A DNA stretch of 61,218 bases, taken from assembly GCA_017502085.1 (NCBI GenBank), contig JAFVVQ010000056.1, positions 1 through 61,218 on the forward strand, given 5' to 3'. The stretch is from Clostridia bacterium. Lineage in GTDB: Bacteria > Bacillota > Clostridia > Oscillospirales > Acutalibacteraceae. A program made the position numbers and the translations under genes. This document shows positions 25,096-43,790 of the stretch, piece by piece. Within the stretch, counting starts at the first letter, position 1. Each line of letters begins with the position of its first letter. Under the pieces are notes generated by a model. It saw only the letters and a list, made by a program, of their open reading frames with translations, did no database searches and was not told where the DNA came from.

Positions 25096-27312
25096 TTATT
25101 CCTCCATCTGTTTGCCGAGAAATGATGCGGCAATCTGTGCGAGTTTGATTTCGGTCTGGGTGGGGCAGGAGCCGTTTTCGTGCATAAGCATAACCAACGA
25201 TCCCGAAACGTCGCCGCCGCCGACAATGGGAAAAGCAACCGCAGCTTCTTTTTCAAGCCCCTCAACGGGTTTCATTCTTTCGCCGTCGATGACACAGACA
25301 AAGTTTTCGCGTTTTTCCATAGTGCTTTCCAGACTGCGGCTGACTCTGCGGTCAAGCACCTCTTTTTTGCTCATACCTGCAGCAGCGATAACCGTGTCAC
25401 GGTCGGTGACAATAACGGGCAGTCCTGTACCTCTGAAAAGCACTTCGGCATACTGGGCTGTTATTGAAGAGAGTTCACCGATAGGCGAGTATTTTTTGAA
25501 AATAACCTCACCGTCCGCATCCGTGTAAATCTCCAACGGGTCGCCTTCACATACAACATTGACACCGAAAGCCTTGTCCGTCCGGTGATTAGCCTTCTGG
25601 ACTATTGTGGCTGATAAGTTACCTTCGATGTCCCAATTAAAATTTACGACAGTACCTCTATATCCCGCTTCTTCAAGCTGTTCTTTGGTAAGCGTTCCTG
25701 ACTTAAGCAACATAGCAATATCTGACTTTAGCTGTATTTCAATGGCAGGCTCTTTTCCGTCATAAACATAGATTTTTTCAATAATCAGAGATAAATCGCC
25801 TTTATCAAGAGTCTCCTTTGCAAGCAGGGCACGGAATATATCGATTGCTGTTTTTGCGATTCGGTTAACCTCTATGGTTGTGTTTCTGCGTTCAACCGTG
25901 AGAGAAATTTGCTTTTCCAAGCCTTCGATTTTCTGCAACAGCTCTTCTTCGATTTCTTCGTAAGTTTCTTCGATAATATCACGGTTGGCTTCTTCGCATT
26001 TCATAAGCTCACGGATTTTTTGCTTTTGAGTCGCTTTGAAGCTTTCTCTTGTTTTTGCCAAATCAACCTCTAAATCCGCAATGGTTGATGCAGATGTGTT
26101 CATCATTTGCGGCTCGTCTTTAATCGCTTTTTCAAGCTCAGCTATCATAATATCCGCATTCATCATAACCCGCTCGATATATTTTTTGAGCATAGTGTCA
26201 AGCAAATCAATACGGATATGATGTGAGGTGCACCCCTTTAAACCTCTTTTATGATACGTTCCGCAGGTGTAAGCAGGTGCCAAATCGGGTCTGCTCATTG
26301 AAAACATAGGACTGCCACAGTCACCGCAGAAAAGAAAGCCCGAATAGGTTGTATCGTATTTCTTTATGCCTCTGTAATTAGATTTTGTTCTTGATTTCAA
26401 CTGCTGTTGAGCTTTCATAAAAGCCTTGACTTCTACGATTGCTTCGTGGTGATTTTCAAAAACAATGTGTTCTTCATTATCTAATTTCTTTTCGGGACCG
26501 TTGATTTTAGTCCGTGTGTATTTGCGCTGACGAAGAGTTCCGATATAAAAATCGTTCTGCAAAATTCCGCTGACCGTAGGTATAGCCCATATCGAACTTG
26601 CTTTGATTTTAACCTCTTTTTTGCCCTTGCTCTTTGCCGCTTCGGCTTCCTTGCGTTCCTTTTCTATCATACGGGGCGTGGGAATGTTTTGTTCTGTGAG
26701 ATAATTCGCAATTTTTTTGTATCCCCAGCCGTTATTGTAAAGCTCGAATATCTTCCGAACAACCTCTGCAGCCTTTTCGTCAATCTCAAACACCATGTTC
26801 TTTGTGTCAACAAAGTAGTAGCCGTAAGGCACGGCGCACACCCAATTCGCTCCGTTTTGACGGAGTTCAACAACCCGCTTTACCTTTTTGGATGCATCGG
26901 TAACAGGCATTTCATTTAGCAAAAACCGAACCTGAATATTATTCCAGTCATCGTATGTCGGATAGTCAATACTGTCGCCGATTGATATGATTCTGACCCC
27001 GGCATCCCTCAAATCTTCAAGTTCAACAAGACCTCTGCTGTTTCGGCGTGAAAAACGGGAAAAGTCCTTGATAATCAGAATCTGATAGTGTCCGTTCATC
27101 AAAAGAGGTCGCATCTGCTGATAGCTTTCTCTCTGCTCAAAAGTGTAACCGCTTCGGTCACGGTCCTCATAATAATCAACCTGAGCATCGGGAAAAGTTT
27201 GTTTTATATATGCTTTTATTATTTTTCTTTGGTTTTCAATCGACGTATTATCTCTGTCTTTTTCCGTATCAACGGAAATTCGCATATACGCCGCTATTCT
27301 TTTTGTGCTCAT
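25096..27312 (-). CDS. Large serine recombinase fused in frame to the C-terminal 4/5 of SpoVT
   Basis: 738 residues. Residues 1-588 are an element recombinase: resolvase domain with catalytic Ser in YMRISVDT, the DRDRSGYTFEQR and KDFSRFSRR motifs, the recombinase domain, a zinc ribbon (CGDCG .. CGTYHKRGLKGC), a coiled coil (about 410-490) and a C-terminal domain. From EGDPLEIYTD (589) to the end the protein is SpoVT: the rest of the swapped-hairpin region plus the GAF domain (SPIGELSSITAQYAEVLF, PVIVTDRDTVIAAAG). The join is exactly at the 16-bp attachment core. In the excised circle the frame would instead continue 24 residues (LHISLTPCERF..) and give a 616-residue recombinase. SpoVT is a forespore regulator of sigma-G genes; here its DNA-binding part is cut off. 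Whether the fusion protein works as a recombinase is unknown. Confidence 0.92.
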   Translation of the reverse strand: MSTKRIAAYMRISVDTEKDRDNTSIENQRKIIKAYIKQTFPDAQVDYYEDRDRSGYTFEQRESYQQMRPLLMNGHYQILIIKDFSRFSRRNSRGLVELEDLRDAGVRIISIGDSIDYPTYDDWNNIQVRFLLNEMPVTDASKKVKRVVELRQNGANWVCAVPYGYYFVDTKNMVFEIDEKAAEVVRKIFELYNNGWGYKKIANYLTEQNIPTPRMIEKERKEAEAAKSKGKKEVKIKASSIWAIPTVSGILQNDFYIGTLRQRKYTRTKINGPEKKLDNEEHIVFENHHEAIVEVKAFMKAQQQLKSRTKSNYRGIKKYDTTYSGFLFCGDCGSPMFSMSRPDLAPAYTCGTYHKRGLKGCTSHHIRIDLLDTMLKKYIERVMMNADIMIAELEKAIKDEPQMMNTSASTIADLEVDLAKTRESFKATQKQKIRELMKCEEANRDIIEETYEEIEEELLQKIEGLEKQISLTVERRNTTIEVNRIAKTAIDIFRALLAKETLDKGDLSLIIEKIYVYDGKEPAIEIQLKSDIAMLLKSGTLTKEQLEEAGYRGTVVNFNWDIEGNLSATIVQKANHRTDKAFGVNVVCEGDPLEIYTDADGEVIFKKYSPIGELSSITAQYAEVLFRGTGLPVIVTDRDTVIAAAGMSKKEVLDRRVSRSLESTMEKRENFVCVIDGERMKPVEGLEKEAAVAFPIVGGGDVSGSLVMLMHENGSCPTQTEIKLAQIAASFLGKQMEE
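25535..25550. repeat. Attachment-site core, left end of the spoVT element
   Basis: AACGGGTCGCCTTCAC, identical to 43690-43705. On the minus strand it encodes the GEGDP-type turn of SpoVT (codons for E-G-D-P). Confidence 0.9.
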
Positions 27313-27438
27313 CCAAATATTACCACCAATGTTATATTAAATATATTCGTTGTTCAACAAACAACATTGTAACATAATAATTTTGTTTTTTCAACTGACT
27401 TTGAGAAATTAATTTGCTTTCGGATGTTACATGTATGT

Positions 27439-27458
27439 AGGCAGAATAATTTCTGCCT
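27439..27458. repeat. Inverted repeat downstream of the 82-residue gene
   Basis: AGGCAGAA-TAAT-TTCTGCCT, perfect 8-bp stem; no T-run on either strand, so it is not a clear terminator. Confidence 0.4.
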
Positions 27459-27472
27459 ATACAGAGCTGCAC

Positions 27473-27721
27473 TCACCGTGCCTCTCTGTCACGCTCTCTC
27501 AAATTCTTTTTTGCGAGAACCATTTTGTTGTGTACGAGAAGCTCCTTTGTGTTTTCAACAAGACTCTCCTTGCCTGAAACAAAAACACAAACCACATAGC
27601 CTTTGTTTTTCCATTCTCTGTATTGCGGTCTGAGAGATTCATAAAACTCCTCATTGTTTCGCTCCTCCTGAGATAACCAAAAATAAGCTATCTTTGTTTT
27701 GTCGCATACATCCAAAAGCAA
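27473..27721 (-). CDS. Small mobile-element protein of unknown function
   Basis: 82 residues from TTG 27721, with GGAGG seven bases upstream. The sequence (DVCDKTKIAYFWLSQEERNN; CVFVSGKESLVENTKELLVH) has no signal peptide or membrane helix and looks soluble. Proteins of this size and pattern occur next to relaxase genes in clostridial elements, but I know no function for them. It lies downstream of the relaxase gene on the same strand. Confidence 0.65.
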   Translation of the reverse strand: MLLDVCDKTKIAYFWLSQEERNNEEFYESLRPQYREWKNKGYVVCVFVSGKESLVENTKELLVHNKMVLAKKNLRERDREAR

Positions 27722-27790
27722 ATTTTATCCTCCTTTCCTTACATATTTTTCCTCATACTCGGGTCTGCTATACGATTTAGTAATCTTTTC

Positions 27791-28993
27791 TTATCGGACA
27801 TCCTTGTCCTTGTCTTTGTGAATAATTCGTTTCGGTTTTCTGAAACGTGACGTACGCTGTTCATATTCGACTCGTCTTGCTTCGTTAATCAACTCAACAA
27901 CACGTTCATCACCAAAGAGTCTTCTTACTAGACGGAAGTCCTGAACTTCGTGTGTGAGCTTTTCATTTTCACTCCGAAGCTCGTTGTTCGCCTTAACATA
28001 TTTGTCACTGTCAACTACTCGGCAATTAAAACGAGCAGTCATTCCGTCGAGTCTTTCCTTAATCTCAAAGCAACGTTTGACTGCTGTCTTTGCAATCGCA
28101 AGGAGCTTTTTTATCAGCGGCTCTACGAACTTTGTCTTGTAAGTTTTTGCTGACATCAGAGGCGGAGGCTCGGGCAGTTGGAACTCTTCTTCATCGTAAA
28201 ATTGATTAGAGATTTCTTCCATCTCATTTTCAAACTCCAATAGGTTTGAAACTCTTGCATTGAGTTCATCAACCTTTATGTTCAGTTCTTCGGATTCCTT
28301 CGTGAGCTTCTCAACTTCTTCAATTCGTATCTTCTTTTTGTAATCGTAATCGGATAAATGTTTTTCACTCGTGCCTTTATGTTCCCACTCAATGCCATAC
28401 TTTTGCATTACGGCTGCAAGTTCTTTCTTCTCGGCAAGTACCCATAGACTCCATTCCGATTCGTGCTTTGAGTTGCCGATGAAGCCTTGGTTGGCGAGTG
28501 CCTGCTTGAGTGATACTCTTGTATCCATTCCTCGTTTGCTTCCAGTTGTGAACGGAACAAAATCAATGTGAAGGTGCGGCGTCGATTCATCCATATGCAG
28601 ATGTGCGGAGAAAACTTTCAGATACGGATTGCGTTCTTGGAACGATTGAAAATATTCGTCGAGTATTCTTTCAGCAAGTTCACCATTCTCATCTTTCGCA
28701 CTCATATCTTCACGGTCACCAATCTGTAAAATGATTTCTTGAAAAGTTTTTTCCTGCTTACCCGTTCGGATTTTCTCATAGTAGTTTTCGATTTTTCTGT
28801 CGGCACGTTTCTGTTTTTCGTTGTACCTTTTCTGTGCCTCATCGAAAAGCTGATGATACACATCCGTTATTTCTTCGTTGCAGTATTCAATGTTTCTGTG
28901 AGTTCTTTCGGGGTCTGTGTTCTTCGCATTGAACTTTCTGCTGTTGTGATTGACCGAGCCTTTACCTACCATTGCACTTATCGTTCTTTTAAT
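27791..28993 (-). CDS. MobV-type relaxase (Mob/Pre family)
   Basis: 400 residues if read from ATT 28993. That start is proposed because GGAG sits 8 bases upstream, an in-frame TAA lies directly before it, and the next ATG (28972) is 29 bases from any ribosome site and would drop the IKRTISA start that relatives, as I recall them, share. The relaxase motif HLHMDESTPHLHIDFVPF holds the metal-binding His residues; GSVNHNSR near the start is also typical. Past residue 200 the protein is a long coiled coil. It would nick oriT and lead the strand during mobilization by a helper conjugative element. Confidence 0.88.
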   Translation of the reverse strand: MKRTISAMVGKGSVNHNSRKFNAKNTDPERTHRNIEYCNEEITDVYHQLFDEAQKRYNEKQKRADRKIENYYEKIRTGKQEKTFQEIILQIGDREDMSAKDENGELAERILDEYFQSFQERNPYLKVFSAHLHMDESTPHLHIDFVPFTTGSKRGMDTRVSLKQALANQGFIGNSKHESEWSLWVLAEKKELAAVMQKYGIEWEHKGTSEKHLSDYDYKKKIRIEEVEKLTKESEELNIKVDELNARVSNLLEFENEMEEISNQFYDEEEFQLPEPPPLMSAKTYKTKFVEPLIKKLLAIAKTAVKRCFEIKERLDGMTARFNCRVVDSDKYVKANNELRSENEKLTHEVQDFRLVRRLFGDERVVELINEARRVEYEQRTSRFRKPKRIIHKDKDKDVR

Positions 28994-29040
28994 TTAATCA
29001 ACTCCTTTAAAATTAAAAATCTACAAACCTTAAAAACGGT

Positions 29041-29274
29041 TTTGTTCAATAAGGTGCAAAGCACCGTCATTCAACAAAATTCTATGTCGCGTCAGCGACT
29101 GCGGTAACACCGCAAAATACAAGCAAAGCGAAGTATTTTATTTTGTTACTTTTGTCAAAAGTAACGCAAAAGCACTTTTGACATCCATAAGGCTATCAAA
29201 AGATGCTGTTGCGCCCTCCGAGGGGTATAGGCTTACTGTGGTAAGCCCCCAAGACGGTACAAATGCACCGTCTT
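29041..29274. other. Hairpin-rich intergenic region, candidate oriT
   Basis: Six perfect or near-perfect hairpins in about 230 bases between the relaxase and RepA-like genes: GGTGC-AAA-GCACC (29053-29065), GTCGC-GTCA-GCGAC (29086-29099), GCGGT-AAC-ACCGC (29101-29113), GTTACTTTT-GTC-AAAAGTAAC (29145-29165), GGCTTA..TAAGCC (29230-29247) and AAGACGGT..ACCGTCTT (29251-29274). A position just upstream of a MobV relaxase is where its oriT usually lies. No nick site can be named. Confidence 0.5.
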
Positions 29275-29351
29275 GCGTGACGATGGTGACGACCGTGACG
29301 GTCTTTTACACGCCCTCTAAATCATCGTCACCATCGACACGATCGTCACGC
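29275..29351. repeat. Nested inverted repeats over the end of the RepA-like gene
   Basis: GCGTGACGAT (29275-29284) pairs with ATCGTCACGC (29342-29351), and CGATGGTGACGA (29281-29292) with TCGTCACCATCG (29325-29336). The right arms encode the last residues of the RepA-like protein. Confidence 0.6.
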
Positions 29352-30334
29352 AGAAGATGAAAACTCAACTTTCTTCCTGCGTGACTTCGACTGCTGCTGT
29401 AAGAAATGTTGTACTCATTCAGCAGTCGTGAAGCGTTGACGTTTAGCTTTAACGAGAGCGTATTTGCTTTCAGGTCAACGCCGAGAAGTGCAACAAACTC
29501 CGATGCACTTCCTTCCCAATCGGGATTGTTGGTTGTGATTATTTCTGCAACCTTTTCAAGAAGCGGGTCAGGTTTTTCTTTCCAAAGTTCCGCTTCCATT
29601 TCTTCAAGTTCCCACACCAACTGTTCTTCGTTTCGTATTAAATGAAAAAGCAAATCGGGTTGGTCTCTGCCTGAAACATCGAGCGTTGCTTTGTTGCTTG
29701 TGCGTTTTTCTTTTTGAAGAATCAATGCACCGTCTGCCGCACCGAACAATCCGTTGGTGCCTGAAATCATATCGTACTTGTCATCTGCTTTCAGTTTTCG
29801 TGTGTGATGAACAACCAAGATGCAAACACCGTGCTTGTCCGAAAGATTTTTAAGACGAGTGATAACCTTGTAATCATTCGCATAGGTGCTGTCGCTTTCT
29901 TCCTCACGGATTTTTTGAAGAGTGTCAATCATAACGAGAGTGGTGTCGGGATGCTCATCAAGGAATAACTGTATCTGTTCTTCAAGACCGTTTGTGAGTT
30001 TACCTGCCGAAACGGAGAAGTGCAGAAGGTCGGTTGTTTCGGTTCCGAACATACGGTACATTCTTTCCTGAAGTCTGCGGTAAGTATCTTCAAGAGCGAG
30101 GTACAAGACCTTTCCTTTTCTTGTCGGCAAGTCCCAAAGCGGTGTGCCTGTGCTTACGTGATAGGCAAGCTGTGTTACGAAAAAACTTTTACCAATCTTC
30201 GGTGAGCCTGCAAAAAGATATGTTCCCGGATAAAGCAAATCTTTGATGACCGCTGCGTTTGTGCAGTAAACATTTTCAAAAAGTTCCTGCATTGTTATCG
30301 TGTCAAGCGGTGCGATTTTATTTTTGTCTGCCAT
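29306..30334 (-). CDS. RepA-like AAA ATPase (RecA/DnaB-type helicase fold)
   Basis: 342 residues from an ATG with GGAGG nearby. Walker A is AGSPKIGKSF (about 43-52), Walker B is TLVMIDTLQK, and a sensor-like HHTRK follows (VVHHTRKLK). A KGKVLYLALED strand fits the AAA_25/RepA class. A C-terminal winged-helix-like section (about 250-330) may bind DNA. Proteins like this unwind replication origins of plasmids and of elements that replicate after excision. The iteron-like repeats (30428-30722) lie directly upstream, which fits an origin. The stop lies within the nested inverted repeats. Confidence 0.8.
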   Translation of the reverse strand: MADKNKIAPLDTITMQELFENVYCTNAAVIKDLLYPGTYLFAGSPKIGKSFFVTQLAYHVSTGTPLWDLPTRKGKVLYLALEDTYRRLQERMYRMFGTETTDLLHFSVSAGKLTNGLEEQIQLFLDEHPDTTLVMIDTLQKIREEESDSTYANDYKVITRLKNLSDKHGVCILVVHHTRKLKADDKYDMISGTNGLFGAADGALILQKEKRTSNKATLDVSGRDQPDLLFHLIRNEEQLVWELEEMEAELWKEKPDPLLEKVAEIITTNNPDWEGSASEFVALLGVDLKANTLSLKLNVNASRLLNEYNISYSSSRSHAGRKLSFHLLRDDRVDGDDDLEGV

Positions 30335-30427
30335 CGGTTTCCTCCTTTCTTTTAGAATTGTTTTTCTTTTCGGCGGGTACTAAATCATAGACATCAACTC
30401 CTTAATTTTTAATGAAGGGCAAAAACA

Positions 30428-30722
30428 CCTTTCACTTATTTGAACAAACACCCCCGAAATGGACACCCAGATTTGGCTGTTTTCGGAAAAGTTCATAAAG
30501 AATTAAAAAAAGCCCTTCATTATGTATGAACTGGGAGAGGTCAAATTGTAGGGTGTTTTGCAAAAAAATTAAAATAGCCTTCACTTATTCCCACCGAGAG
30601 AAAGCGTTTGTACGCCCTAATTCCAAAATATTTACAAAGAATTCAAAATCCCTCTCATTATGTTTGCACTGGTAGACCCCAAATTCGGCATCATTTCCGA
30701 AAAGTTTTTAAAAATTTTTTTC
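30428..30722. repeat. Four imperfect direct repeats, iteron-like
   Basis: Units at 30428-30511, 30513-30576, 30577-30649 and 30650-30722 start with CCTTTCACTTAT, CCCTTCATTATG, CCTTCACTTATT and CCTCTCATTATG and end in an A-rich tract (AAGAATTAAAAAA type). Units 1 and 4 also share AAATTYGG..TTTYCGGAAAAGTT-like centres. The 590-base space 30335-30927 otherwise holds no gene that I can support. Confidence 0.55.
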
Positions 30723-30901: not shown

Positions 30902-30927
30902 AAATAAAGTATTATCTAAGATTAAAT

Positions 30928-31662
30928 TCAAGTATTTGTTTTGTGCGTTCTGGTTATTTTAATATACTCTGATGGTGTCATGTTATAAAACCTTTTAAAT
31001 GCCGTTACAAAATATGCCTGTGAAGAAAAACCGACTTCAATACATATCTCTTTTGATGACATTCCGTTGAGAAGTAAGTTCTTCGCCTTTTCAAGTTTCT
31101 GTCTCAAAATATATGAACTGAGATTTTCTCCGATCTCTCTTTTGAAAACCTGCGACAGATAATCTGATGAAATTCCGCAATGCTCTGCAACAGCAGAAAC
31201 GCTTATTTTTTTACAAAGGTTTTCGTTTATATATTTGATGCAGTTTCTTATATGAGGAGAAAATTCAGGTTGCTTCTTGTTCTTTTTCACATCCTGCGTC
31301 AATTTTAATATTTCAATACCGAGGCACATAAATATTTCATTTTTATCCGCAAGCGAATCAATCGTTTTAATAACTCTGTCCGAAAATTCATAGGCTTTGT
31401 TTTCGTTGAGTCCGCCTTGTATTGCATATCGGGTTGCAAGGGTGATTGCGCTTACCGCCATATATTTATGCTGCATCAATTCATTGTCGGACATTTTGCC
31501 CATAACAATAAGAGAATCAAGATTTTTTATCTGCATCATCAATGAATCAATATCGCCTTGCTGAACGCAGGAAAACAAACGGATTTCTGCACTGTATGGC
31601 GTGTGTTTTTCAAGAGTGTTTTTTTCTATCGTCTTGACGGTTACGAGTTCGCCTATGTTCAT
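30928..31662 (-). CDS. AraC-family transcriptional regulator
   Basis: 244 residues. The C-terminal 100 residues form the double helix-turn-helix: ISVSAVAEHCGISSDYLSQV, then RQKLEKAKNLL and the second motif SSKEICIEVGFSSQAYFVTA with FKRFYNMTPSEYI. The N-terminal 140 residues are helical and do not match the usual cupin sensor. It is the last gene of a three-gene operon with the esterase and kinase genes (4-base gap) and probably controls it. Confidence 0.88.
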   Translation of the reverse strand: MNIGELVTVKTIEKNTLEKHTPYSAEIRLFSCVQQGDIDSLMMQIKNLDSLIVMGKMSDNELMQHKYMAVSAITLATRYAIQGGLNENKAYEFSDRVIKTIDSLADKNEIFMCLGIEILKLTQDVKKNKKQPEFSPHIRNCIKYINENLCKKISVSAVAEHCGISSDYLSQVFKREIGENLSSYILRQKLEKAKNLLLNGMSSKEICIEVGFSSQAYFVTAFKRFYNMTPSEYIKITRTHKTNT

Positions 31663-31666: not shown

Positions 31667-32608
31667 TCACATCTTTTCTTTCAGCTTTTTCATTTCTTTT
31701 TTCAGACGATTATTGCATAAAACTTCCCAAAGCGGCATAATCAGACCGCCACCTAAACGGCAATGCGCCTCATTCATTGCACCGTAATATGCAACTCTGA
31801 AATCCGCATATTCGGATAGTTTATATTTTTGTTTGTATGTCTCGTATAAACCATAGGCATCGCCCCACATATTACGAAGCTGGAACAAATCATATTCTCT
31901 CTCTGCCCACATACAAGCGCAAGGGTCAATGAAGGCTGTGAGTTTTAATGTTTTGGGGTCAGCCATTATGTTCATTATGTTGAGGTCGCTGTGAACGAGA
32001 ACAGGAGATGAGTTTTCTTCGGGAAGATTATTAAAGATTTCAGTTGCTTCACAGAGAAGCTTCAAATTTTTCTTGCTGAACTTTCCTTTTTCGCTCAATT
32101 CTTTCAAACCGGCAATCCAAAGCTCTTGCTTTTCTTTTTTGTAGTATTCAAGCCAACTATCATAACAAGGATTTGATAACTCACCGAATTTGTCATTTGT
32201 AACGCTGTGCCATTTAAGCATACCCGAAACAACATCATCAGCAAATTTCTGTTTCTGACTCTTGTTTTTTAACAAAAACAACGGATTTAACACATTTTGT
32301 CCATCAACAAAGCTCATAGCTAAAATTGCCGTTTCTTCATCTTTATGTGTAAAAAGAACCTTCGGCATTTTCACACTTGTGTTTGCAGAGAGGATGTTGA
32401 GCTGCTGAGCTTCTTCGTACTGGGAACCCTGAATTCTGTATGCTTTGACAGCGATTGTTTCTCCGTTTGAAAGGATTGTTTTATAAACTCTTCCGTAACT
32501 GCCTCCGCCGATAAATTTAATATTCGAAACTTTCTTGTCGAGTTTTTCAGAAACAAGTTCAGGTATTATCGGCAATATATGTTTGTTACTGTTATCGAGA
32601 ATTTTCAT
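31667..32608 (-). CDS. APH/fructosamine-kinase-like phosphotransferase
   Basis: 313 residues with a protein-kinase-like fold: the Gly-rich loop FIGGGSYGRVYKT (33-45), Lys in TIAVKAYR, the catalytic loop VLVHSDLNIMNIM (H-x-D-x-N type) and metal-binding AFIDPCACMWAERE. APH enzymes phosphorylate aminoglycosides, macrolides, choline or sugar amines; the substrate is not evident. It starts 2 bases after the esterase stop, in the same operon. It could be a resistance gene, but nothing here proves it. Confidence 0.8.
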   Translation of the reverse strand: MKILDNSNKHILPIIPELVSEKLDKKVSNIKFIGGGSYGRVYKTILSNGETIAVKAYRIQGSQYEEAQQLNILSANTSVKMPKVLFTHKDEETAILAMSFVDGQNVLNPLFLLKNKSQKQKFADDVVSGMLKWHSVTNDKFGELSNPCYDSWLEYYKKEKQELWIAGLKELSEKGKFSKKNLKLLCEATEIFNNLPEENSSPVLVHSDLNIMNIMADPKTLKLTAFIDPCACMWAEREYDLFQLRNMWGDAYGLYETYKQKYKLSEYADFRVAYYGAMNEAHCRLGGGLIMPLWEVLCNNRLKKEMKKLKEKM

Positions 32609-32610
32609 TG

Positions 32611-33534
32611 TTATTCCTCCGCAATTCTTCTTTTAACAATTTGGTATGCAGTTTTGCTTTCGGGTAAAAACGAAAACAGTTGGAAGCAATGGCACATACC
32701 CTCAAATTTATGAAGCTCGGCATCTGCACCGGCGGCTTTCAGTTTTTCATAAACTCTGTCGTTATCGCTTTCATCAAGCTCCGCAGTTCCGCATATCAGA
32801 GTAACTTTCGGAAAATCTTCAAAACTGCCGAACAACGGTGAGATATACGGATCGGTTCTGTCAACATTCAGAACGTACTTTGATATTCTTCTAAGCAGAT
32901 GAAGGTTATCTTCGATTTTCTTATGCTTTGCTATCCCGTAAAACGGATCTGTGTATGCATTTGTGATTCTTGAATCACCGCTTGATGTTGCATCTGCCCA
33001 AAGAGAAAAACAAACAATATGATTCGGCATGGGATAACCGTTATCACGAACCCACAAAGATGATGTCATTGCAAGAGTTGCACCTGCGCTGTCGCCGATA
33101 AAAACAATATCAGAATTATTGATACCTTCGTCAAGCAGATGAAGATAAACCTTTACTACATCGTGCATCTGAGACGGAAGCTGATGTTCGGGAAATCTGC
33201 CGTAATCAACATTTATAACCGTTGCACCGCAAAACAATTTGCTGTATTTTTCGGCGAGCCTACGGTAAAAATCGTTCAGTTCAATTTTGAAACCGCCGCC
33301 GTGAATCATAAGTATAACTTTTTCTGTTTTGCAATTACGGTTTATGAGCTTTTCATATTTCACATCGTCGGTTGTATGTTTTGAATGGATAAAGTTTTTT
33401 GAGGGCTTGTATTTTGATTTTTTATCCTTCGTCAGCTTTGCCGCGTTGTCGGACAGCTTTGAACTGTCAGATAACGGCGAATGAAAAATCAAACGCAATG
33501 TTGACATAAATATTTTTGAAATCAGAGATTGCAT
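32611..33534 (-). CDS. Alpha/beta hydrolase, HSL/acetyl-esterase type
   Basis: 307 residues from ATG 33534 (GGGTGA upstream; the longer start at 33606 would run over the promoter -10 and -35). The oxyanion motif HGGGFKIE, the nucleophile elbow GDSAGATLA, and late Asp (ELDESDND) and His (GMCHCF) make a complete triad of the Aes/hormone-sensitive-lipase family. The substrate is probably a short-chain ester or an acylated drug. First gene of the cargo operon. Confidence 0.87.
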   Translation of the reverse strand: MQSLISKIFMSTLRLIFHSPLSDSSKLSDNAAKLTKDKKSKYKPSKNFIHSKHTTDDVKYEKLINRNCKTEKVILMIHGGGFKIELNDFYRRLAEKYSKLFCGATVINVDYGRFPEHQLPSQMHDVVKVYLHLLDEGINNSDIVFIGDSAGATLAMTSSLWVRDNGYPMPNHIVCFSLWADATSSGDSRITNAYTDPFYGIAKHKKIEDNLHLLRRISKYVLNVDRTDPYISPLFGSFEDFPKVTLICGTAELDESDNDRVYEKLKAAGADAELHKFEGMCHCFQLFSFLPESKTAYQIVKRRIAEE

Positions 33535-33559
33535 AACATCACCCGTCTTTCTGATTGAA

Positions 33560-33588
33560 ATTTTATCACAAGAAAAATATAAATACAA
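33560..33588 (-). promoter_or_regulatory. Promoter of the esterase-kinase-AraC operon
   Basis: Minus-strand TTGTAT, 17-base spacer, TAAAAT, 26 bases upstream of the esterase ATG. Confidence 0.65.
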
Positions 33589-33658
33589 CAATCTTACAAT
33601 TTTCATATCTGCAAATCAAAACAATCAAGGAAATATGAAAAATGGTTTCAAAGAAAAA

Positions 33659-33698: not shown

Positions 33699-34445
33699 TT
33701 ATAATTTTACACCTTTATAAATATAATACGGTTTTGAGAATATGTAACTTCCGTCTTGCTGTGCTGATTTCAGATTGTCTATAAAACCATCATATTCATT
33801 CTTGGTTAATGCCTCTGTGTTTTCCTTGTGAAGCCAAGCTATATCCAAACTTAAATCATAACCGAATGTACCTTCTTTATATTCTGTTTCAACAACATTA
33901 TGGACACATACAGAACTTTCGAACAATTTGCTCTTATTGAAAATCCCGTACATCCTTCTGCCAATCCAACTGTCAAGGTCATCCATCCAAGGCTGTTTTG
34001 TTACGGCGTAAGCATGAACTGCTTTTGAAATAAGGTCTTTGTTTTCACCGTTATATGCAACACTGTCCCAGTCACAGTTTACGCAAATTACAACTCCGCC
34101 TGGTTTTAAAATTCTGTGTATTTCACTTACCAATAAATCTTTGTCAGATACACATTCAAACATATCGGCAGAGAATATAAAATCAAATGTATTGTCCTCA
34201 AACTCAAGTTTTTTTGAACAATCCATTATTTTGAGTTTAATGGGACTTTTGTATTTTACATCTTTAAACCATTTATCGGTAATATCAACACCTATAGCCT
34301 GATGTATTTTATCAGGAAATGCTTGTTGTAATCCTACAAGGAATCCCGCATCACGGCAGCCCAAGTCTGCAACAACTGCATTATCGGGTAATTTTATTTG
34401 TTCAAAAATGGCTTTATTTAATGATGAAAACTTATTAATGCTCAT
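33699..34445 (-). CDS. Class I SAM-dependent methyltransferase
   Basis: 248 residues. Motif I is VADLGCRDAGFL (20-31), the acidic end of strand 2 is GVDIT, motif post-I/II is NTFDFIFSADMFECVSD, and motif III is LKPGGVVICVN, the Methyltransf_11/25 pattern. The target is not evident; no rRNA-methylase signature (Erm, Cfr) is seen. GGAGG lies upstream of the ATG at 34445. The gene sits behind a leader peptide and an attenuator (34455-34651), a layout known from antibiotic-induced resistance genes. Confidence 0.85.
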   Translation of the reverse strand: MSINKFSSLNKAIFEQIKLPDNAVVADLGCRDAGFLVGLQQAFPDKIHQAIGVDITDKWFKDVKYKSPIKLKIMDCSKKLEFEDNTFDFIFSADMFECVSDKDLLVSEIHRILKPGGVVICVNCDWDSVAYNGENKDLISKAVHAYAVTKQPWMDDLDSWIGRRMYGIFNKSKLFESSVCVHNVVETEYKEGTFGYDLSLDIAWLHKENTEALTKNEYDGFIDNLKSAQQDGSYIFSKPYYIYKGVKL

Positions 34446-38360: not shown

Positions 38361-38415
38361 AAACGTAAGATAAATGTGGCAATAAAGCTCTTTTTTTGAG
38401 CCTTATAAAAGCAAT

Positions 38416-38457
38416 AACACCATTACTAAAAGCTGTACAGCTGTTGGTAATGGTGTT
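38416..38457. terminator. Bidirectional terminator
   Basis: AACACCATTAC / GTAATGGTGTT stem, with AGCTGTACAGCT in the loop, followed by TTTTG; lies between convergent genes ending at 38360 and 38475. Confidence 0.85.
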
Positions 38458-38474
38458 TTGTCTATTATTCTGAT

Positions 38475-39167
38475 TTAATCATCTTTCGGTTGAAAGCAAA
38501 TGCCTAAATTGGTATATCTGTTAAGAGAATTCTTCCCTTGTTTTATAAAATCCCAAGAATCCTTATAATTACTTGTTACGGAAAAATCTGATTCTCCTAT
38601 AAATCGTAAAAACTCAGGAACTTTATCTTTATAGGTTTTTGCAAATTTGAATGAATTATTCTCTTTTTCTTCGTCACTGCAGTTAAGTTGGTTATACAAC
38701 ACGTGATCTAAATTACAGGACATATAATATACACTATACGGCACATCCCATATAGATTGTTTGGAACACAATTTATTGATGTTTGTACTTTTTCTCTTGT
38801 TTCGGGATTCAATTCCTTTTTTATTTTTTGTGCGTATCTCAGTTAATGAATAAAATGGTTCTGTTGCGTTTTCATCTTCTACAATACACTCATCCGGAAC
38901 ATAGGTGCCATCTGTATCAACAATGTGTATAATCTCTTTAAAATCATCTTTATTCAGATGATTGTTTGAAGCGTAGTGATTAATTTCACCTGCAACTTTT
39001 GTAAAAATATTTTCTTGAGATGTTTCGTTGAATTGAGTTGTGATATCACCATGTACTACATGAACATATACTTCGTTACTACTGTATATTCGAGATAAGA
39101 TAACAGCCAAAGCATCTTGGTCTGAAGGCCCTTCTACAATCACAAAAACTATTTTCTTACGAGCCAC
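38475..39167 (-). CDS. Toprim-like nuclease-type protein, partner of the ATPase
   Basis: 230 residues from GTG 39167, chosen since a GGTGAG lies just before it and the longer start would lie deep in the ATPase gene. The Toprim/OLD signature is visible: Glu12 in FVIVEGPSDQDAL and the D-x-D pair 84/86 in IIHIVDTDGTY. The rest is not recognisable to me. It overlaps the ATPase stop by 11 bases, so the two are translationally coupled. Pairs of an AAA/ABC-type ATPase with a Toprim protein occur in phage-defence systems (OLD/Gabija, PARIS, AbiL type); which, if any, this is cannot be fixed without searches. Confidence 0.7.
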   Translation of the reverse strand: MARKKIVFVIVEGPSDQDALAVILSRIYSSNEVYVHVVHGDITTQFNETSQENIFTKVAGEINHYASNNHLNKDDFKEIIHIVDTDGTYVPDECIVEDENATEPFYSLTEIRTKNKKGIESRNKRKSTNINKLCSKQSIWDVPYSVYYMSCNLDHVLYNQLNCSDEEKENNSFKFAKTYKDKVPEFLRFIGESDFSVTSNYKDSWDFIKQGKNSLNRYTNLGICFQPKDD

Positions 39168-40575
39168 TATACTCACCAGCCTCTCTGAAAGCAAAAGCGA
39201 TTTCATAGTTGTTTGTCGGCTCGTAAACAGGCTCATCTTGTTCACCTAAAACAATATCACGATAATAGAAATCACGAAGATTATTATTTGTTTTGATATT
39301 GCTCATACGAATATATCTATTTTCTTTATTAGTAGTGGTAAACGCAATGAATCCTTTATCAAGTGTTTCAAGAGGTCTTAAATTATGTGAAGTGAAAATT
39401 AATTGACCTTTACCTTTTTCTGAAATTATTCTGAGAAGTTCGCCTAACAGATACTCGAAAACGCCGGAATCCAGTTCATCAACAGCAACTGTAATAGAGT
39501 CATTATTATAGACTACAATTAATAATTGCAAAATAGATATAATCTTTTTTATACCTTCAGATTCATATTGCAAAGGAATTTCTTTGCTGTTTTTATGTGA
39601 CATTAGCTGTATTTTTGAACCGACTTTTCCGTTTTTAAGGAGTTCTGTTCCCAAATCTTTAACACTTATGGTTAACCCAGGGATTATTTGAGTCAATACA
39701 ACATTCATATTTGCGATAACATTTTTTACAACTTCAAGCGCCTCTTGTGGAATAAGTGAGGGTTTATTTAATTCTATCATTAAACTTCCAAAAGAAGTTT
39801 TACGCTTTTCTCTATCCTCATATCTAAAAGCTAAAGGAAGAGCATTCATTGAAATCAAACCGGAATTAGTAGTATTAATAATAAATAATTCATAATTACC
39901 AAACCAAATTAAAGCCTCAAAAAGATCTAAATGGCGTTGCTCTTTACAGTTTTGTCTAATAATATTTAATAACTCCCAAGAAAATATAAATGTTCTTGAT
40001 GTAGACATTGTAAGCTTTTTTGCGGTAAGAAGTTCTGTTTTTTTCTTTTGGCTAGTCCCTATTAAAATTTTATATTTACTATCTGGTACAAATACTTCGT
40101 CAGTTCTTGTATCAACAATTGGTCCCATTTTTGTTTTTGAGTTTTCGTCTGCAAAGGAGTATGATAAAACCTCATCAAAGATAGTTGATTTATATTTTTC
40201 ATCAACTAAATCTTCTTGATTTATGTTTTGCGTCGTTTCATCGATATCTTTTCTGATACTGAATTCGTAGTTAACTATGTACTCGCCTAAAGTTTCTTTA
40301 TTTTTAACTCTCAAATTAAATTTTAAAGTAGCAAACGAAGCATCGACATTAATATAATCCGCAAAATATGCAGGTACACTCTTTCCTGACAAAACAAGTT
40401 TAAGCAAAGAAAGAGCATCTATCAAAGCGGTTTTTCCAGAACCATTCTGTCCATATAATCCTAAAACACTAGATTTGAATGCTTTTCTATTGTTTGTAAA
40501 TTCAAGAATTCCATGTTTTACATTTTTAAAATTGATTATCTCTAAACTTTCAATCCTAACAACCATTTTTTTCAT
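39157..40575 (-). CDS. AAA_15/AAA_21-type ATPase (SMC/OLD-like), partner of the Toprim protein
   Basis: 472 residues from ATG 40575 with GGAGG. The N-terminus IESLEIINFKNVKHG and Walker A GQNGSGKT (42-49) are typical of the ABC-ATPase branch with RecF/OLD. Late motifs are the Walker B strand ITVAVDELDSGV (Asp-Glu) and the switch His in LIFTSHNLRPLE. The middle 300 residues vary and would form the insertion that senses the trigger. No nuclease domain is fused; that role is probably taken by the following Toprim gene. A consensus promoter lies 33 bases upstream. Confidence 0.8.
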   Translation of the reverse strand: MKKMVVRIESLEIINFKNVKHGILEFTNNRKAFKSSVLGLYGQNGSGKTALIDALSLLKLVLSGKSVPAYFADYINVDASFATLKFNLRVKNKETLGEYIVNYEFSIRKDIDETTQNINQEDLVDEKYKSTIFDEVLSYSFADENSKTKMGPIVDTRTDEVFVPDSKYKILIGTSQKKKTELLTAKKLTMSTSRTFIFSWELLNIIRQNCKEQRHLDLFEALIWFGNYELFIINTTNSGLISMNALPLAFRYEDREKRKTSFGSLMIELNKPSLIPQEALEVVKNVIANMNVVLTQIIPGLTISVKDLGTELLKNGKVGSKIQLMSHKNSKEIPLQYESEGIKKIISILQLLIVVYNNDSITVAVDELDSGVFEYLLGELLRIISEKGKGQLIFTSHNLRPLETLDKGFIAFTTTNKENRYIRMSNIKTNNNLRDFYYRDIVLGEQDEPVYEPTNNYEIAFAFREAGEYSGS

Positions 40576-40607
40576 TGCTCTATCCTCCGTTTCGTATCTC
40601 CATAGTC

Positions 40608-40636
40608 ATTTTAGCATATACCCAACAATATGTCAA
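40608..40636 (-). promoter_or_regulatory. Consensus promoter of the ATPase-Toprim operon
   Basis: Minus-strand TTGACA, 17-base spacer, TAAAAT. Confidence 0.85.
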
Positions 40637-40742
40637 CAACAAACAGGCAAAACGATACATTTTGTTTCATTTTGCTTGTTTGTTTGTCGCTTTTGCGTGA
40701 ACTTTGTTTCTTTTAGATGTTTTTAAAAAGTTACACCATTAT

Positions 40743-40946
40743 CTATTCATTGATAACAATCTCTCTTGCCCTAGCTTCAATGCTATTAATTCTTCGAACC
40801 CATTCCATTTGGTTATCTTCTTTAAATTGCTCTGTGATTCCCTCGTTGACTTTCATTTGTTCTACCAACCGAGAGAACATAGCTAATGCCTGTTCATCAA
40901 TTTCTACAAGATTAGTCCATAATGTTCCATTCATAAGCATAATGTT
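40743..40946 (-). pseudogene. tnpV: Truncated tnpV copy
   Basis: 65 codons matching the C-terminal half of the intact TnpV at 43227-43592: MLMNGTLWTNLVEIDEQALA against MLMNGTLWTHLAEIDEQASD and on to the stop. The first half (about 52 residues) and any ribosome site are missing. Homology begins abruptly at CATAAGCATAATGTT (40932-40946), so it is a deletion or recombination remnant. Confidence 0.85.
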
Positions 40947-41137
40947 ATAAGACTAAGATGATGTATGTTAAATTATCGTTCGCCGAATTTTATGTTTGCT
41001 GTACTGACACCTCTCGACCAAAGCTATTATCCAAAATCAACACAAATTCATTTTTGGCTAATAGATATCGATTTAAACAAATGATATTTCTTCAACGTTT
41101 CCCTCTTGTTCACGAATATTCAAATATTTTCACGGTT

Positions 41138-41166
41138 TTGCTTGACGAGCATTAACATTTGTGCTA
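41138..41166 (+). promoter_or_regulatory. Possible promoter of the DeoR gene
   Basis: TTGACG, 17-base spacer, TATTTT near 41138-41166; the following ACTGTTAATAACCGTTAAT could be an operator. Confidence 0.4.
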
Positions 41167-41225
41167 TTTTATACTTGTATCTACGGCAATACTGTTAATA
41201 ACCGTTAATGAAAGGGGCAAAAATC

Positions 41226-41996
41226 ATGTTTATTGAAGAAAGACATCAGGAAATTCTCAAAATCTTATCAGAAAAAGGCAGAATATCAAATTCTGAGATT
41301 CAGGAAACATTTCAAATCAGCTATGACTCGGCAAAAAGAGATTTAAGACTTCTTGAAGAACAAGGACTTTTGAAAAGAACTCACGGCGGTGCTATTCCTG
41401 CAAGACAAATCGGCGGAAATGTAATTAAAAATCTTTCCCCCGATGAGCGTGTTGTTGAAGTCAAGGAAAACTACCTTGCGATAGCAAAAGAAGCTGTAAA
41501 AACAATTGAAGAAAATGACGTTGTTTATATCACCAATGCAAGTGTAGGTTATCTGATGGCACAAAACATTGGTAATGTTTGCTGTACTGTTGTTACAAAC
41601 TCAATTGCAATTGCCGAAGAACTTCGCAAAAAGGAAAACATTACAGTTATTCTTGCAGGCGGCGAAATGCAGGCAAACGGTTGTTTCTATGACAGTTTTG
41701 CATTGTCGGTAATCAACAGACTTCGTTTTGATAAATGCTTTGTTACCTCTGCTTGTGTTTCTGCAAAGTTCGGTCTTTCAATTCAGAAGTCAAGAAGTGT
41801 TGAACTTACAAACGCTATCATTAACAATTCAAAAACAGTTTACGGTTTATATCCCGTTGAAAAAATCGGATTTGATTCTATAATCAGCATTTGCCATGCA
41901 AACAAGCTGAATTATATTATTACTGACAGCGATTCTTCGGAAGATGATTTAATGCAGTTCGAAGAACTCGGAGTTAAAATTAAAATAGCTAAATAA
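41226..41996 (+). CDS. DeoR-family transcriptional regulator
   Basis: 256 residues from ATG 41226 (AAAGGGG at 41211-41217). The N-terminal winged helix has FIEERHQEILKILSEKGRIS and the recognition helix YDSAKRDLRLLEEQGLLKRT, then HGGA. The C-terminal DeoRC sensor domain (about 70-250) has the sugar-phosphate isomerase fold marks VVTNSIAIAEEL and VILAGGEMQ. These proteins sense a phosphorylated sugar and repress a catabolic operon. No such operon is adjacent, and the gene stands isolated between two tnpV copies, so its target is unknown. Confidence 0.9.
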   Translation: MFIEERHQEILKILSEKGRISNSEIQETFQISYDSAKRDLRLLEEQGLLKRTHGGAIPARQIGGNVIKNLSPDERVVEVKENYLAIAKEAVKTIEENDVVYITNASVGYLMAQNIGNVCCTVVTNSIAIAEELRKKENITVILAGGEMQANGCFYDSFALSVINRLRFDKCFVTSACVSAKFGLSIQKSRSVELTNAIINNSKTVYGLYPVEKIGFDSIISICHANKLNYIITDSDSSEDDLMQFEELGVKIKIAK

Positions 41997-42010
41997 ACTA
42001 TCGTATAGAA

Positions 42011-42052
42011 AAAGCCATACAAGTTGATTTCAAAGTCAGCTTGCATGGCTTT
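42011..42052 (+). terminator. Terminator of the DeoR gene
   Basis: AAAGCCAT-CAAG / CTTG-ATGGCTTT stem with mismatches, then TTAATTATTT. Confidence 0.7.
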
Positions 42053-42400
42053 AATTATTTGTGTTATTTGCGTTTTTCAAAATCGGATAAAAATTTCGTA
42101 TGTGAATCTTTCATGCAAAAGAAAAATCATCAAAATTCTCCGACGATGAAGAGTTTTTTTAAAGATTTAAAAATGTGCGCGCAGTTGGAATTATACCCTA
42201 TAATCCAATGCTTTGCAAGTAAAAAAATCATCAAATTCGTTGCCTTTGACAAATTCTGCATAATTAACAAAAAATTTGTGAAAATGCTTATAAAGTTATT
42301 AAATACTCCGTCTTGACCAAGACTTAGAAATATAGGATAATCTTCAATGGTGGTACAGAAGGAATAGGCATGACCGACTCTATTGGAAGGACGTGGTATA

Positions 42401-42721
42401 ATGCCATTGCTTATTCTCTTTACTTGGAAAACACTACCGCCATTCCAGGCTTTTATTGTCTCCCTTCTCGAAATAACAGTTGTGTTCGTTGAGCATCTGT
42501 TCAAAAAGGATTCAAACGGCATAAAGAGTACAATTTCATTCATTGTTTCTGTAGTTGCCGTTACCCCGTTAATCTTGGTTATAATGTCAAGAGTTATGGC
42601 GGGTGGTGATAACATACCTGCTGATGTTTGGCAAGCAATCATTGATTACTTCTCAATATTCAGTACAATATCCTCGCTCAACGATTTCGTTGATGCTGTT
42701 TCGGCACTTTTAGCCTGTTAA
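42401..42721 (+). CDS. Possible small membrane protein
   Basis: 106 residues from ATG 42401 with GGAAGG at 42385-42390. Two hydrophobic stretches are likely membrane helices (about 12-34, 48-72: FIVSLLEITVVFVEH; ISFIVSVVAVTPLILVIM). Ends in LNDFVDAVSALLAC. No homology recognised; it could be a real small gene or a chance frame in a decayed area. Confidence 0.4.
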   Translation: MPLLILFTWKTLPPFQAFIVSLLEITVVFVEHLFKKDSNGIKSTISFIVSVVAVTPLILVIMSRVMAGGDNIPADVWQAIIDYFSIFSTISSLNDFVDAVSALLAC

Positions 42722-42749
42722 AACAAAAAGCACCACTCATCACCGACTG

Positions 42750-42900
42750 GCCTCGGTTTTGAATAGCGGTGCCTTAAGTTACATTCAGCTAAGCGCTCTC
42801 TTTAATGTGCCTATCTGATATGTACCACCAAATTGACGCTCTCGTCCTTGTGACGGGGGCGTTTTGGCTATCTTTTGAATAGCGGTTAGTATATTATCAT
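42750..42900. other. Non-coding stretch with short repeats
   Basis: TTTTGAATAGCGGT occurs twice (42754-42767 and 42873-42886), with a hairpin-like CGCTCTCGTC..GACGGGGGCG between. I see no gene here; it may be a remnant of an inserted element. Confidence 0.35.
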
Positions 42901-42969
42901 AAACGCAAAGAAAATGCAAGTGTTTTTTTAAATTTTTTGCAATTTTTCTATGTTTTATATTATTTATAA

Positions 42970-43128
42970 ATGATTTACGGAACAGAGTTAATTATGAACA
43001 TAACTGTTAATGATGCGGAATCGTTCAGAGTTTCACAAAAGCAAATGAGATATTGTTTTTACCGAACGGAGAAAAATTTCTGCATTATCCTCGATGAAAG
43101 ATATCTCTTTAATGCATCTATTTCATAG
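42970..43128 (+). CDS. Possible 52-residue protein
   Basis: ATG 42970 to TAG 43126-43128: MIYGTELIMNITVNDAESFR continuing with KQMRYCFYRTEKNF. There is no ribosome site before the ATG. It may be a decayed or chance frame; nothing else is seen between 42900 and 43226. Confidence 0.2.
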   Translation: MIYGTELIMNITVNDAESFRVSQKQMRYCFYRTEKNFCIILDERYLFNASIS

Positions 43129-43226
43129 AATCAAAGGGAGTGGTGTCTCCGTACATTTTTTCATCTCTTAATATGGGTAATAATCATATTGAAGAAGAAT
43201 CTCGGCAAGTATCCCTGGAACAATCA

Positions 43227-43592
43227 TCATAAAATCAATTCTGATGTTACAATCTCCCTTGCACGAGCTTCAATGTTATTTATTTGGGCAACCCATTCCA
43301 TTTGGTCATCTGCTTTGAGTTGTTCTGTAATTCCCTCACTGATCTTCATCTGTTCTGCTATCTGAGAGAACATATCTGATGCTTGTTCATCAATCTCTGC
43401 AAGGTGAGTCCACAGTGTGCCATTCATAAGCATAATGTTGAACTGAACTCGTTTATGTTTCATAAGATGATCTTTGCGTTTCAGTCCCCATACACCGAGC
43501 GGTTTGTTTGCTTCGGCAGGTAATGCGATGTTGGGGATTATGTAGTCTGCTACTTGTCGGTAAGTGATGTTTGTTTTTGCTTGCTGTGTCAT
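43227..43592 (-). CDS. tnpV: TnpV-family protein of the mobile element
   Basis: 121 residues. The start is TYRQVADYIIPNIALPAEAN and KPLGVWGLKRKDHLMKHKR, then a helical half ending in MEWVAQINNIEARAREIVTS. It fits the TnpV family known from Tn4451-like elements, where it lies beside the end opposite to, or near, the serine recombinase TnpX; its biochemical role is not established. It has an AGGTC site 7 bases before the ATG and lies only 25 bases from the SpoVT remnant stop. A truncated copy is at 40743-40946. Confidence 0.88.
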   Translation of the reverse strand: MTQQAKTNITYRQVADYIIPNIALPAEANKPLGVWGLKRKDHLMKHKRVQFNIMLMNGTLWTHLAEIDEQASDMFSQIAEQMKISEGITEQLKADDQMEWVAQINNIEARAREIVTSELIL

Positions 43593-43616
43593 AGTTTTTG
43601 ACCTCCGTATAATTTA

Positions 43617-43790
43617 TTATTCCTTGCAACGCTTATAGAAATTAAGCATTGCATAACAGAATCTTTCACACGGTGTCAATGATATATGTAACGGGTCGCC
43701 TTCACGGATACGCATAGTGCGGCGGATTTCCTTGGGGATAACGACTCTTCCGAGGTCGTCGATTCTTCTGACAATACCTGTGGCTTTCAT
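43617..43790 (-). pseudogene. spoVT: N-terminal fragment of spoVT ending in element sequence
   Basis: ATG 43790 (GGAGA ten bases upstream), reading MKATGIVRRIDDLGRVVIPK and on to REGDP at residue 33: the AbrB/SpoVT DNA-binding domain. After the 16-bp attachment core the frame enters the element and adds 24 foreign residues (LHISLTPCERFCYAMLNFYK and four more) before TAA. The missing part, SpoVT 34-179, is fused to the recombinase 18 kb away. The 57-residue product keeps most of the swapped-hairpin domain, so it might still bind DNA. Confidence 0.95.
43690..43705. repeat. Attachment-site core, right end of the spoVT element
   Basis: AACGGGTCGCCTTCAC, identical to 25535-25550. The chromosomal side (towards 43706) is CGTATCC on the minus strand; the element side reads TACATAT. 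Confidence 0.9.

Follow-up and report, generated by a model that had tools for sequence, protein, structure and literature searches.

A mobilizable element inside the sporulation gene spoVT of Clostridia and the exchange of C-termini with its serine recombinase

Can a sporulation gene that is split by a mobile element still be in use? The question is raised by contig JAFVVQ010000056.1 of Clostridia bacterium (assembly GCA_017502085.1), a stretch of 61,218 nucleotides that is called the window here (contig C59 of a 2.63-Mb assembly), in which spoVT is divided by an integrated element. Measured from crossover to crossover, the element comprises 18,155 bp, with a G+C content of 0.36, compared to 0.45 and 0.39 in the flanks. 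Codons 1 to 33 of spoVT are positioned at one end of the element and the remainder of the gene at the other end, both on the minus strand (Table 1). The 16-bp direct repeat AACGGGTCGCCTTCAC is found at the two ends, and no third exact copy is present in the assembly. Joining the flanks across the repeat yielded a SpoVT of 179 residues with an unbroken frame. The family model TIGR02851 matched both parts, with positions 27 to 180 at 25102-25554 and positions 1 to 36 at 43680-43787. An earlier note on this DNA had described the two halves, the repeat and the join, and had placed a mobilizable element inside the gene; all of this was recovered, and a serine recombinase, a relaxase and TnpV were found, along with site-specific integration. 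The note would have been contradicted by a second intact spoVT. A TIGR02851 search of the genome, which is 84.5% complete, found no full-length SpoVT elsewhere; the first 36 codons occur once more, at C52:153110-153217.

Analysis of the reading frames revealed an arrangement that is absent from the earlier note, whose reading of a split gene holds. The 3' part of spoVT forms the end of a single frame of 738 residues, in which the Pfam domains Resolvase, Recombinase and Zn_ribbon_recom are followed by SpoVT_C. The native 24-residue tail of this large serine recombinase (LSR) is encoded at the opposite end of the element, where it now terminates the fragment of SpoVT residues 1 to 33 in a 57-residue open reading frame (ORF). 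The 3' end of the recombinase gene contains the attachment site of the element (attP), and the reading frame there agrees with that of spoVT. Integration thus amounts to a reciprocal exchange of C-termini. The geometry of the frames shows that recombinase plus tail and SpoVT become recombinase plus SpoVT_C and SpoVT(1-33) plus tail; the free and the integrated products of the gene that contains attP would thus differ in their C-termini. An annotated "738-aa recombinase" and a "missing spoVT" in such genomes are therefore one split gene. Such an in-frame exchange, in which a recombinase and the gene it targets trade C-termini, is a natural design that couples the integration state to protein function.

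A structural model of the fusion, generated from a 42-sequence alignment, had a mean predicted local distance difference test score (pLDDT) of 72.9 and a predicted template modeling score (pTM) of 0.39. Block means were 80 to 91 across residues 611 to 738, and the joint at about residues 541 to 610 was poorly modeled. Searching with Foldseek revealed serine integrases and B. subtilis SpoVT (2w1t and 2w1r) as structural matches of the model, and a TnpX chain was among the PDB sequence matches of the recombinase. Conservation of the tail at the protein level extends beyond attP. Thirty tails, reduced to 26 distinct ones, share one ungapped frame of 24 codons, with R54 in 25 and F/Y44 in 24 of the 26; third codon positions vary most. 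Three G030 sites, two of them frameshifted, were excluded from this alignment, and L161 and the MSJ-21 fragment lie outside the set. The constraint on the tail is moderate, with a ratio of nonsynonymous to synonymous substitution rates (dN/dS) of 0.27 in eight type-2 copies and 0.44 in three type-1 copies.

The integration site is a GA dinucleotide within the conserved REGDP-coding stretch of spoVT. The geometry of the attachment sites placed GA (minus strand) at 25541-25542 and 43696-43697 of the window. Rejoining of the recombinase end and the tail gave an attP that is a near-perfect palindrome centered on GA. The symmetry was read for 12 of the 16 element pairs (the other four did not fit the pattern of the script; the An100 pair spans two contigs) and averaged 18.3 of 24 positions at GA versus 3 to 9 at 13 other centers tried. 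The symmetry of the target site (attB) gives no support, with 9.0 of 24 positions at GA and 10.1 at another center. Arms of attP with swapped partners scored 8.9 of 12, compared to 10.0 of 12 for the true pairs. Since swapped partners score nearly as high, the arms represent a shared motif and give no proof of pairing.

Comparison with element-free relatives, which the earlier note had proposed, failed in one genus and succeeded in another. No empty-site genome with both flanks was found in the window's own genus, where intact genomes have the left flank in common with it (blaI/blaR-like genes in G018 and transporter genes in G030) and not the right one. The clean comparison was therefore taken from the genus of R. 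bromii, where comparison with 12 of the 38 intact loci gave one close match to both flanks. This locus, in G479, is the empty site of the 17,435-bp element of R. bromii 5AMG, matching 1595 bp upstream at 97.6% identity and 540 bp downstream at 96.5% identity. Because the G479 empty site and the left and right junctions (attL and attR) of 5AMG differ on either side of GA, the crossover is assigned to those two bases.

How widespread is the fusion? In the window's own genus (45 genomes, searched with TIGR02851), eight intact spoVT genes with frames of 179 to 211 residues were found. In nine further cases, family positions 25/27 to 180 lie in a frame of 722 to 750 residues, and all nine of these long frames are in-frame LSR fusions. 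A scan of genome contigs with LSR alignment A1 yielded 428 relatives, of which the best 80 were counted; three of them (L100, L112 and L113) are contigs of genus genomes, so the sets overlap by three. Seventy-three of the 80 are fused in frame to SpoVT_C (70 with a stop codon, 130 to 152 residues past the core, and three cut by the contig end). Seven are unfused, one of them because the contig ends first. Six of the seven are without any SpoVT_C in the DNA examined, and L177 has SpoVT_C within an intact spoVT nearby. With SpoVT_C absent or intact beside all seven, no out-of-frame insertion was seen.

Named carriers include R. bromii 5AMG, R. bicirculans 80/3, R. flavefaciens 007c and ATCC 19208, Anaerotruncus massiliensis AT3, Flavonifractor An100, Eubacterium MSJ-21 and Lachnoclostridium MSJ-17. 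Twelve genomes were reached via such loci. Eleven are fused and without a full-length spoVT, and the twelfth, R. flavefaciens NALB, in which the LSR is unfused, has an intact spoVT. In the R. bromii genus (60 genomes), 38 intact genes, nine fusion-sized frames, three partial matches only (G453, G460 and G474) and ten genomes without a match were recorded; direct reading established the fusion of 5AMG, and for the remaining eight the LSR match ends in the same frame. A full-length spoVT beside a fusion was found in none of the nine own-genus, nine R. bromii-genus and eleven locus-reached fused genomes, many of which are incomplete assemblies (5AMG is counted in both of the latter sets). A family-level search of 398 genomes with PF15714 detected SpoVT_C in 322, and among the matches listed, fusion-sized frames occur in G191, G271 and G420.

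Some relatives of the recombinase are arranged differently. G497, a fusion-bearing genome, carries a second full-length relative in a 636-residue frame that is unfused to SpoVT_C (C101:6007-7707). At L103:2928-4700, the frame of a close relative continues into a different gene, endonuclease/exonuclease/phosphatase-like by eye. At L161:11680-11900, a recombinase end stands head-to-head with an antisense spoVT 5' part, which is an inverted junction. At L177:9959-15063, the recombinase has its own short tail on attP-like DNA and lies 2.8 kb from the intact spoVT, which has the same orientation. Among the records of a phage collection, two short ones with closely related recombinases were considered as circles; neither shows a circle, and one is also fused to SpoVT_C.

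The distribution points to horizontal movement. Across 74 fusions (duplicates L100, L112 and L113 removed), identities of the LSR and SpoVT_C parts are weakly correlated (Spearman 0.20), and some pairs are alike in both. Some LSR pairs that are 95 to 99% identical carry SpoVT_C parts merely 53 to 82% identical. The window and G012 share 98% identity in the LSR and 82% in SpoVT_C, and L107 and L108 share 95% and 53%. Near-identical recombinases on divergent SpoVT_C parts indicate repeated entry into different spoVT genes, in frame in every fusion seen.

Is the divided gene still in use? Matches to SigG were found in all nine split genomes of the own genus and to SpoIVA in six, compared to six and seven, respectively, of the eight intact genomes. 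Among the 28 of 45 genus genomes without a whole SpoVT_C match, SigG was found in six and SpoIVA in five. SpoIVA was also present in each of 12 further genomes, of which 11 carry the fusion. The earlier note had allowed that the strain might not sporulate; nothing has pointed that way so far, as SigG and SpoIVA matches are both kept in the window's genome. Over codons 34 to 178, dN/dS was 0.092 for fused SpoVT_C (n = 9) and 0.086 for intact genes (n = 8), values that are pair sums and phylogenetically non-independent. By this measure, SpoVT_C is under the same degree of constraint whether fused or intact. Expression of spoVT in C. difficile requires sigF and sigG, which makes sound the earlier note's argument that SpoVT works in the forespore, and a spoVT mutant of this species is without heat-resistant spores (PMC3789822, in the passages cited). 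Deletion of spoVT causes a severe sporulation defect in B. cereus, unlike B. subtilis (cited part of PMC5061766). R. bromii L2-63 sporulates, and 5AMG is without 3 of the 73 genes listed (PMC5814915, cited part).

Two promoters bear on the timing of excision. Alignment of nine loci revealed a conserved vegetative-type promoter, TTGnnn-17-TGTTACAATG, upstream of the LSR; the motif TGnTAYAATG occurs in 39 of the 78 relatives with 260 bp upstream, with 0.4 expected from shuffling. Upstream of spoVT fragments and intact genes, the sigF/sigG-like pattern GHATR-N16-18-[ACG]A[TC]NHTA was found in 27 of 40 cases; about one was expected from mononucleotide shuffles for this pattern, which was loosened after the data were seen. 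The strict sigG -10 element (CATNHTA) occurs in 0 of 29 own-genus spoVT upstream regions. Since the recombinase promoter is of a conserved vegetative type, timing would depend on a directionality factor. This is the arrangement of skinCd, whose recombinase is constitutively expressed and in which a separate directionality factor sets the timing (PMC5025042, in the passages cited). The candidates are just two: the 82-residue ORF near the recombinase start, which has a tblastn match in 41 of 84 loci and no Pfam or NCBIfam match, and the 57-residue attR product. By eye, a motif resembling the attP arms spans the recombinase -10 region at 27361-27374 of the window, which suggests that the recombinase may bind its own promoter.

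As the only spoVT found in these genomes is split and mature spores of clostridia require SpoVT, the exit of the element most likely takes place in the forespore or earlier. The explanation that we hold to be likely as a whole is that the LSR element integrates at GA in spoVT, swaps the C-termini, most likely leaves the gene by the forespore stage of cells that complete sporulation, and then re-integrates or moves on. Entry into the REGDP-coding stretch would be driven by the element's own recombinase. If the element left precisely, spoVT and the recombinase would both return to their normal form, as indicated by the geometry and by the empty-site genome of the related element. The moment of exit would be set by a directionality factor, for which there are candidates only. 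Excision during sporulation is the best inference from these data, and spore formation in the many gut bacteria with this arrangement probably involves its precise removal from the gene. As SpoVT acts in the forespore, its rebuilding would alter the genome passed on by the spore.

Several observations weigh against this explanation. No circle junction was found with a degenerate attP pattern, either as an exact match in viral contigs or with up to three mismatches in the 45 genus genomes; the pattern fits the window's own rebuilt site and could miss other element types. Within the element, no directionality factor preceded by a sporulation promoter was recognized; two strict sigG-type matches occur there, and 1.2 are expected. 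In fusion L108, the end of SpoVT_C is shortened and altered. The SigG matches, strong as they are (E <1e-120), exceed the curated cutoff of the family in 0 of 45 genomes, and three of the nine split genus genomes, all less than 80% complete, are without a SpoIVA match. Recent insertions could account for the constraint on SpoVT_C. Loss of spoVT may also be tolerated in other Clostridia, by analogy with B. subtilis, which tolerates it better than B. cereus does (PMC5061766, cited part).

The strongest alternative is a plain mobile parasite that uses the most conserved stretch of spoVT as attB, is excised rarely and for transfer only, without any tie to sporulation, and leaves its carriers to sporulate via a few element-free cells. 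The vegetative-type recombinase promoter, the mobilization genes, the strong horizontal spread and the failure to find a sporulation-controlled directionality factor in the element are all consistent with such a parasite, as is the predominance of intact over split genes in the R. bromii genus (38 versus 9). Against it stand the split in 9 of the 17 own-genus genomes with a whole SpoVT_C, the restriction of a damaged SpoVT_C end to L108 among 70 uncut fusions, and the C. difficile skin element, which is developmentally excised although its recombinase is also constitutive (PMC5025042, cited part). A merely harmful parasite is further opposed by the recurrence of the arrangement across many species, in which SpoVT_C stays open and constrained, and by the C. 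difficile mutant, which forms no heat-resistant spores (PMC3789822, in the cited passages). We consider the parasite unlikely, while granting it a real chance.

The two chimeric products might themselves be the switch: the SpoVT DNA-binding half plus tail, made from the spoVT promoter, would act in trans on the recombinase-SpoVT_C fusion and license excision only in sporulating cells. Protein-level conservation of the tail beyond attP, retention of the spoVT promoter upstream of many split genes, the predicted separate SpoVT_C domain in the fusion model and the constraint on orphan short genes of the same make-up (see below) would fit this idea. The tail can also be explained as the normal C-terminus of the recombinase in the circle, its constraint is only moderate, and in-frame fusion follows once the frame of attP is fixed; we regard this switch as improbable. 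Its fuller form, in which the tail sits on the SpoVT half under a forespore promoter, the SpoVT GAF sensor sits on the recombinase, and supply of the tail in trans only in the sporulating cell directs excision to the spore lineage, appears quite improbable. If true, it would mean that SpoVT is rebuilt in the germ line and not in a doomed mother cell, and that the element travels as a circle and re-enters on outgrowth. That spoVT is dead in lineages losing sporulation, as the 28 genus genomes without a whole SpoVT_C and with few SigG and SpoIVA matches might suggest, is very improbable, because the split genomes fall on the side that bears spore genes (SigG in 9 of 9) and the constraint on SpoVT_C is unchanged.

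Excision from spoVT by the forespore stage would set this element apart within a known class. Like sporulation gene-intervening elements, it encodes a recombinase and lies in a sporulation gene that a precise join reopens, and no second intact copy was found; the reopened gene is seen in an empty-site genome for the 5AMG element and by the join only for the window's element. Judged from sequence, it appears to be a further variant of this class, with excision presumed. In the passages cited, such elements interrupt sigK, spsM, spoVFB, spoVR, gerE and yabG. The element gin, in gerE of B. cereus ATCC10987, is likewise non-phage, with serine recombinases, a sporulation regulator gene as target and a precise join that restores it. 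Excision in sporulation and a factor, GirX, were demonstrated for gin, whereas the spoVT element has a different target, presumed excision and exchanged C-termini (PMC5595907, cited part). Large serine recombinases are also encoded by skinCd in sigK of C. difficile (PMC5025042) and SPbeta in spsM of B. subtilis (PMC4191935). Unlike the spoVT element, these are prophages or prophage-like, and no recombinase-target fusion is described in the cited passages; both are excised in the terminal mother cell (PMC5025042), which dies, in contrast to a rebuilding of spoVT in the forespore. The element yin, in yabG of Clostridium botulinum, is a serine recombinase element in a sporulation gene and has integrated and circular forms. 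It is prophage-like, is reported from one strain and has its recombinase next to the 5' gene part (PMC10747680, in the passages cited), whereas members of the spoVT family are found across many species and have theirs fused to the 3' part.

Integrative mobilizable elements (IMEs) of the Tn4451 type, with TnpX or TndX, share the serine recombinase, relaxase and TnpV. When the serine recombinase of an IME is site-specific, the genes disrupted are described as dispensable, in contrast to spoVT as the target here, and recombination of the Tn4451/TnpX type proceeds without a directionality factor (PMC5704250, cited part). In the integration-dependent immunity of mycobacteriophage BPs, attP also lies inside a gene whose product is changed at its C-terminus by integration; BPs truncates a repressor, whereas recombinase and host gene both gain new C-termini in the spoVT element (PMC4557955, in the passages cited). 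In the open-access literature, which most subscription journals lie outside, no paper was found that joins spoVT with a serine recombinase, with a mobile element and Ruminococcus, or with excision and attB, and spoVT is unnamed in the cited part of the main text of a large LSR survey (PMC10083194). Because the family occurs in many Clostridia, including cultured R. bromii, R. bicirculans and R. flavefaciens, the question is testable in existing strains.

What else does the element carry? By its gene content it is classified as an IME, with a serine recombinase, a relaxase, TnpV and defense-like cargo. The LSR with Resolvase, Recombinase and zinc-ribbon domains, the Mob_Pre relaxase and TnpV are features of the Tn4451/TnpX type, in keeping with the gene content of Tn4451, and the crossover of Tn4451 is GA, as in the spoVT element. 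No conjugation family was found among the element ORFs given to Pfam. The DeoR gene of the element is 94% identical to a gene beside the intact spoVT in element-free G018 (L052). Outside the element, PADLOC identified a PDC-M01 defense pair at 50964-53333 (plus strand), with the ATPase gene split into overlapping frames (50964-51725 and 51604-52494).

Table 1. Features of the spoVT element and its borders in the window
Feature	Position	Strand	Basis or remark
Integrated element, crossover to crossover	25541..43697	.	GA center from attP symmetry and 5AMG empty site
attL copy of 16-bp repeat	25535..25550	+	
attR copy of 16-bp repeat	43690..43705	+	
spoVT 3' part, in-frame C-terminus of recombinase ORF	25096..25548	-	last two bases of core codons onward; codons 34-179 whole
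Fusion ORF, 738 aa: LSR (~592 aa) plus SpoVT_C	25096..27312	-	Pfam; structure model; PDB matches
attP palindrome arm, left end	25557..25564	+	
Recombinase promoter, vegetative type	27366..27394	-	TTGAAA-17-TACAAT, extended -10 TGTTACAATG; 9 loci aligned
82-aa ORF near recombinase start, candidate accessory or directionality factor	27473..27721	-	conserved in relatives
MobV-like relaxase	27791..28972	-	Pfam Mob_Pre over cutoff; NCBIfam MobV below cutoff, 58 vs 100 bits
AAA_25 ATPase, DnaB/RepA-like	29306..30334	-	
AraC-type regulator, cargo	30928..31662	-	
Fructosamine-kinase/APH-fold phosphotransferase	31667..32608	-	far under NCBIfam resistance cutoffs
Alpha/beta hydrolase, cargo	32611..33606	-	
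Methyltransferase, cargo	33699..34445	-	
Two proteins, 444 and 628 aa	35097..38360	+	no Pfam match; membrane-like by eye
AbiLi/AriA-like ATPase (39157-40575) and unmatched neighbor (38475-39245), defense-like cargo	38475..40575	-	
DeoR-type regulator	41208..41996	+	
TnpV	43227..43592	-	
57-codon ORF: SpoVT 1-33 plus 24 residues	43617..43790	-	24 residues = recombinase C-terminus in circle
attP palindrome arm, right end	43674..43681	+	
spoVT codons 1-33, AbrB-type DNA-binding part	43692..43790	-	
spoVT promoter, sigF/sigG-like	43826..43854	-	GTATA-N17-AACAATA

Orphan short genes were also observed, in which SpoVT codons 1 to 31 are followed by a recombinase-type tail with no SpoVT_C nearby, many of them with a spoVT-type promoter. 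They occur in the window's own genome (C52:153110-153217, L008) and at L038, L039, L041, L044, L046-L049, L064, L068 and L069; G030 carries two frameshifted ones. No partner recombinase end was found that would make these cassettes plain attR sites of second elements. In the eight in-frame type-2 copies, dN/dS was 0.043 for the SpoVT part and 0.27 for the tail, and the orphans may be a real small gene family. At 49822-49939 of the window (minus strand), a GH5 gene is preceded by a type-2 tail half-site (core plus tail) that adjoins only faintly spoVT-like DNA, and G026 carries a full SpoVT(1-31)-plus-tail cassette at the same spot.

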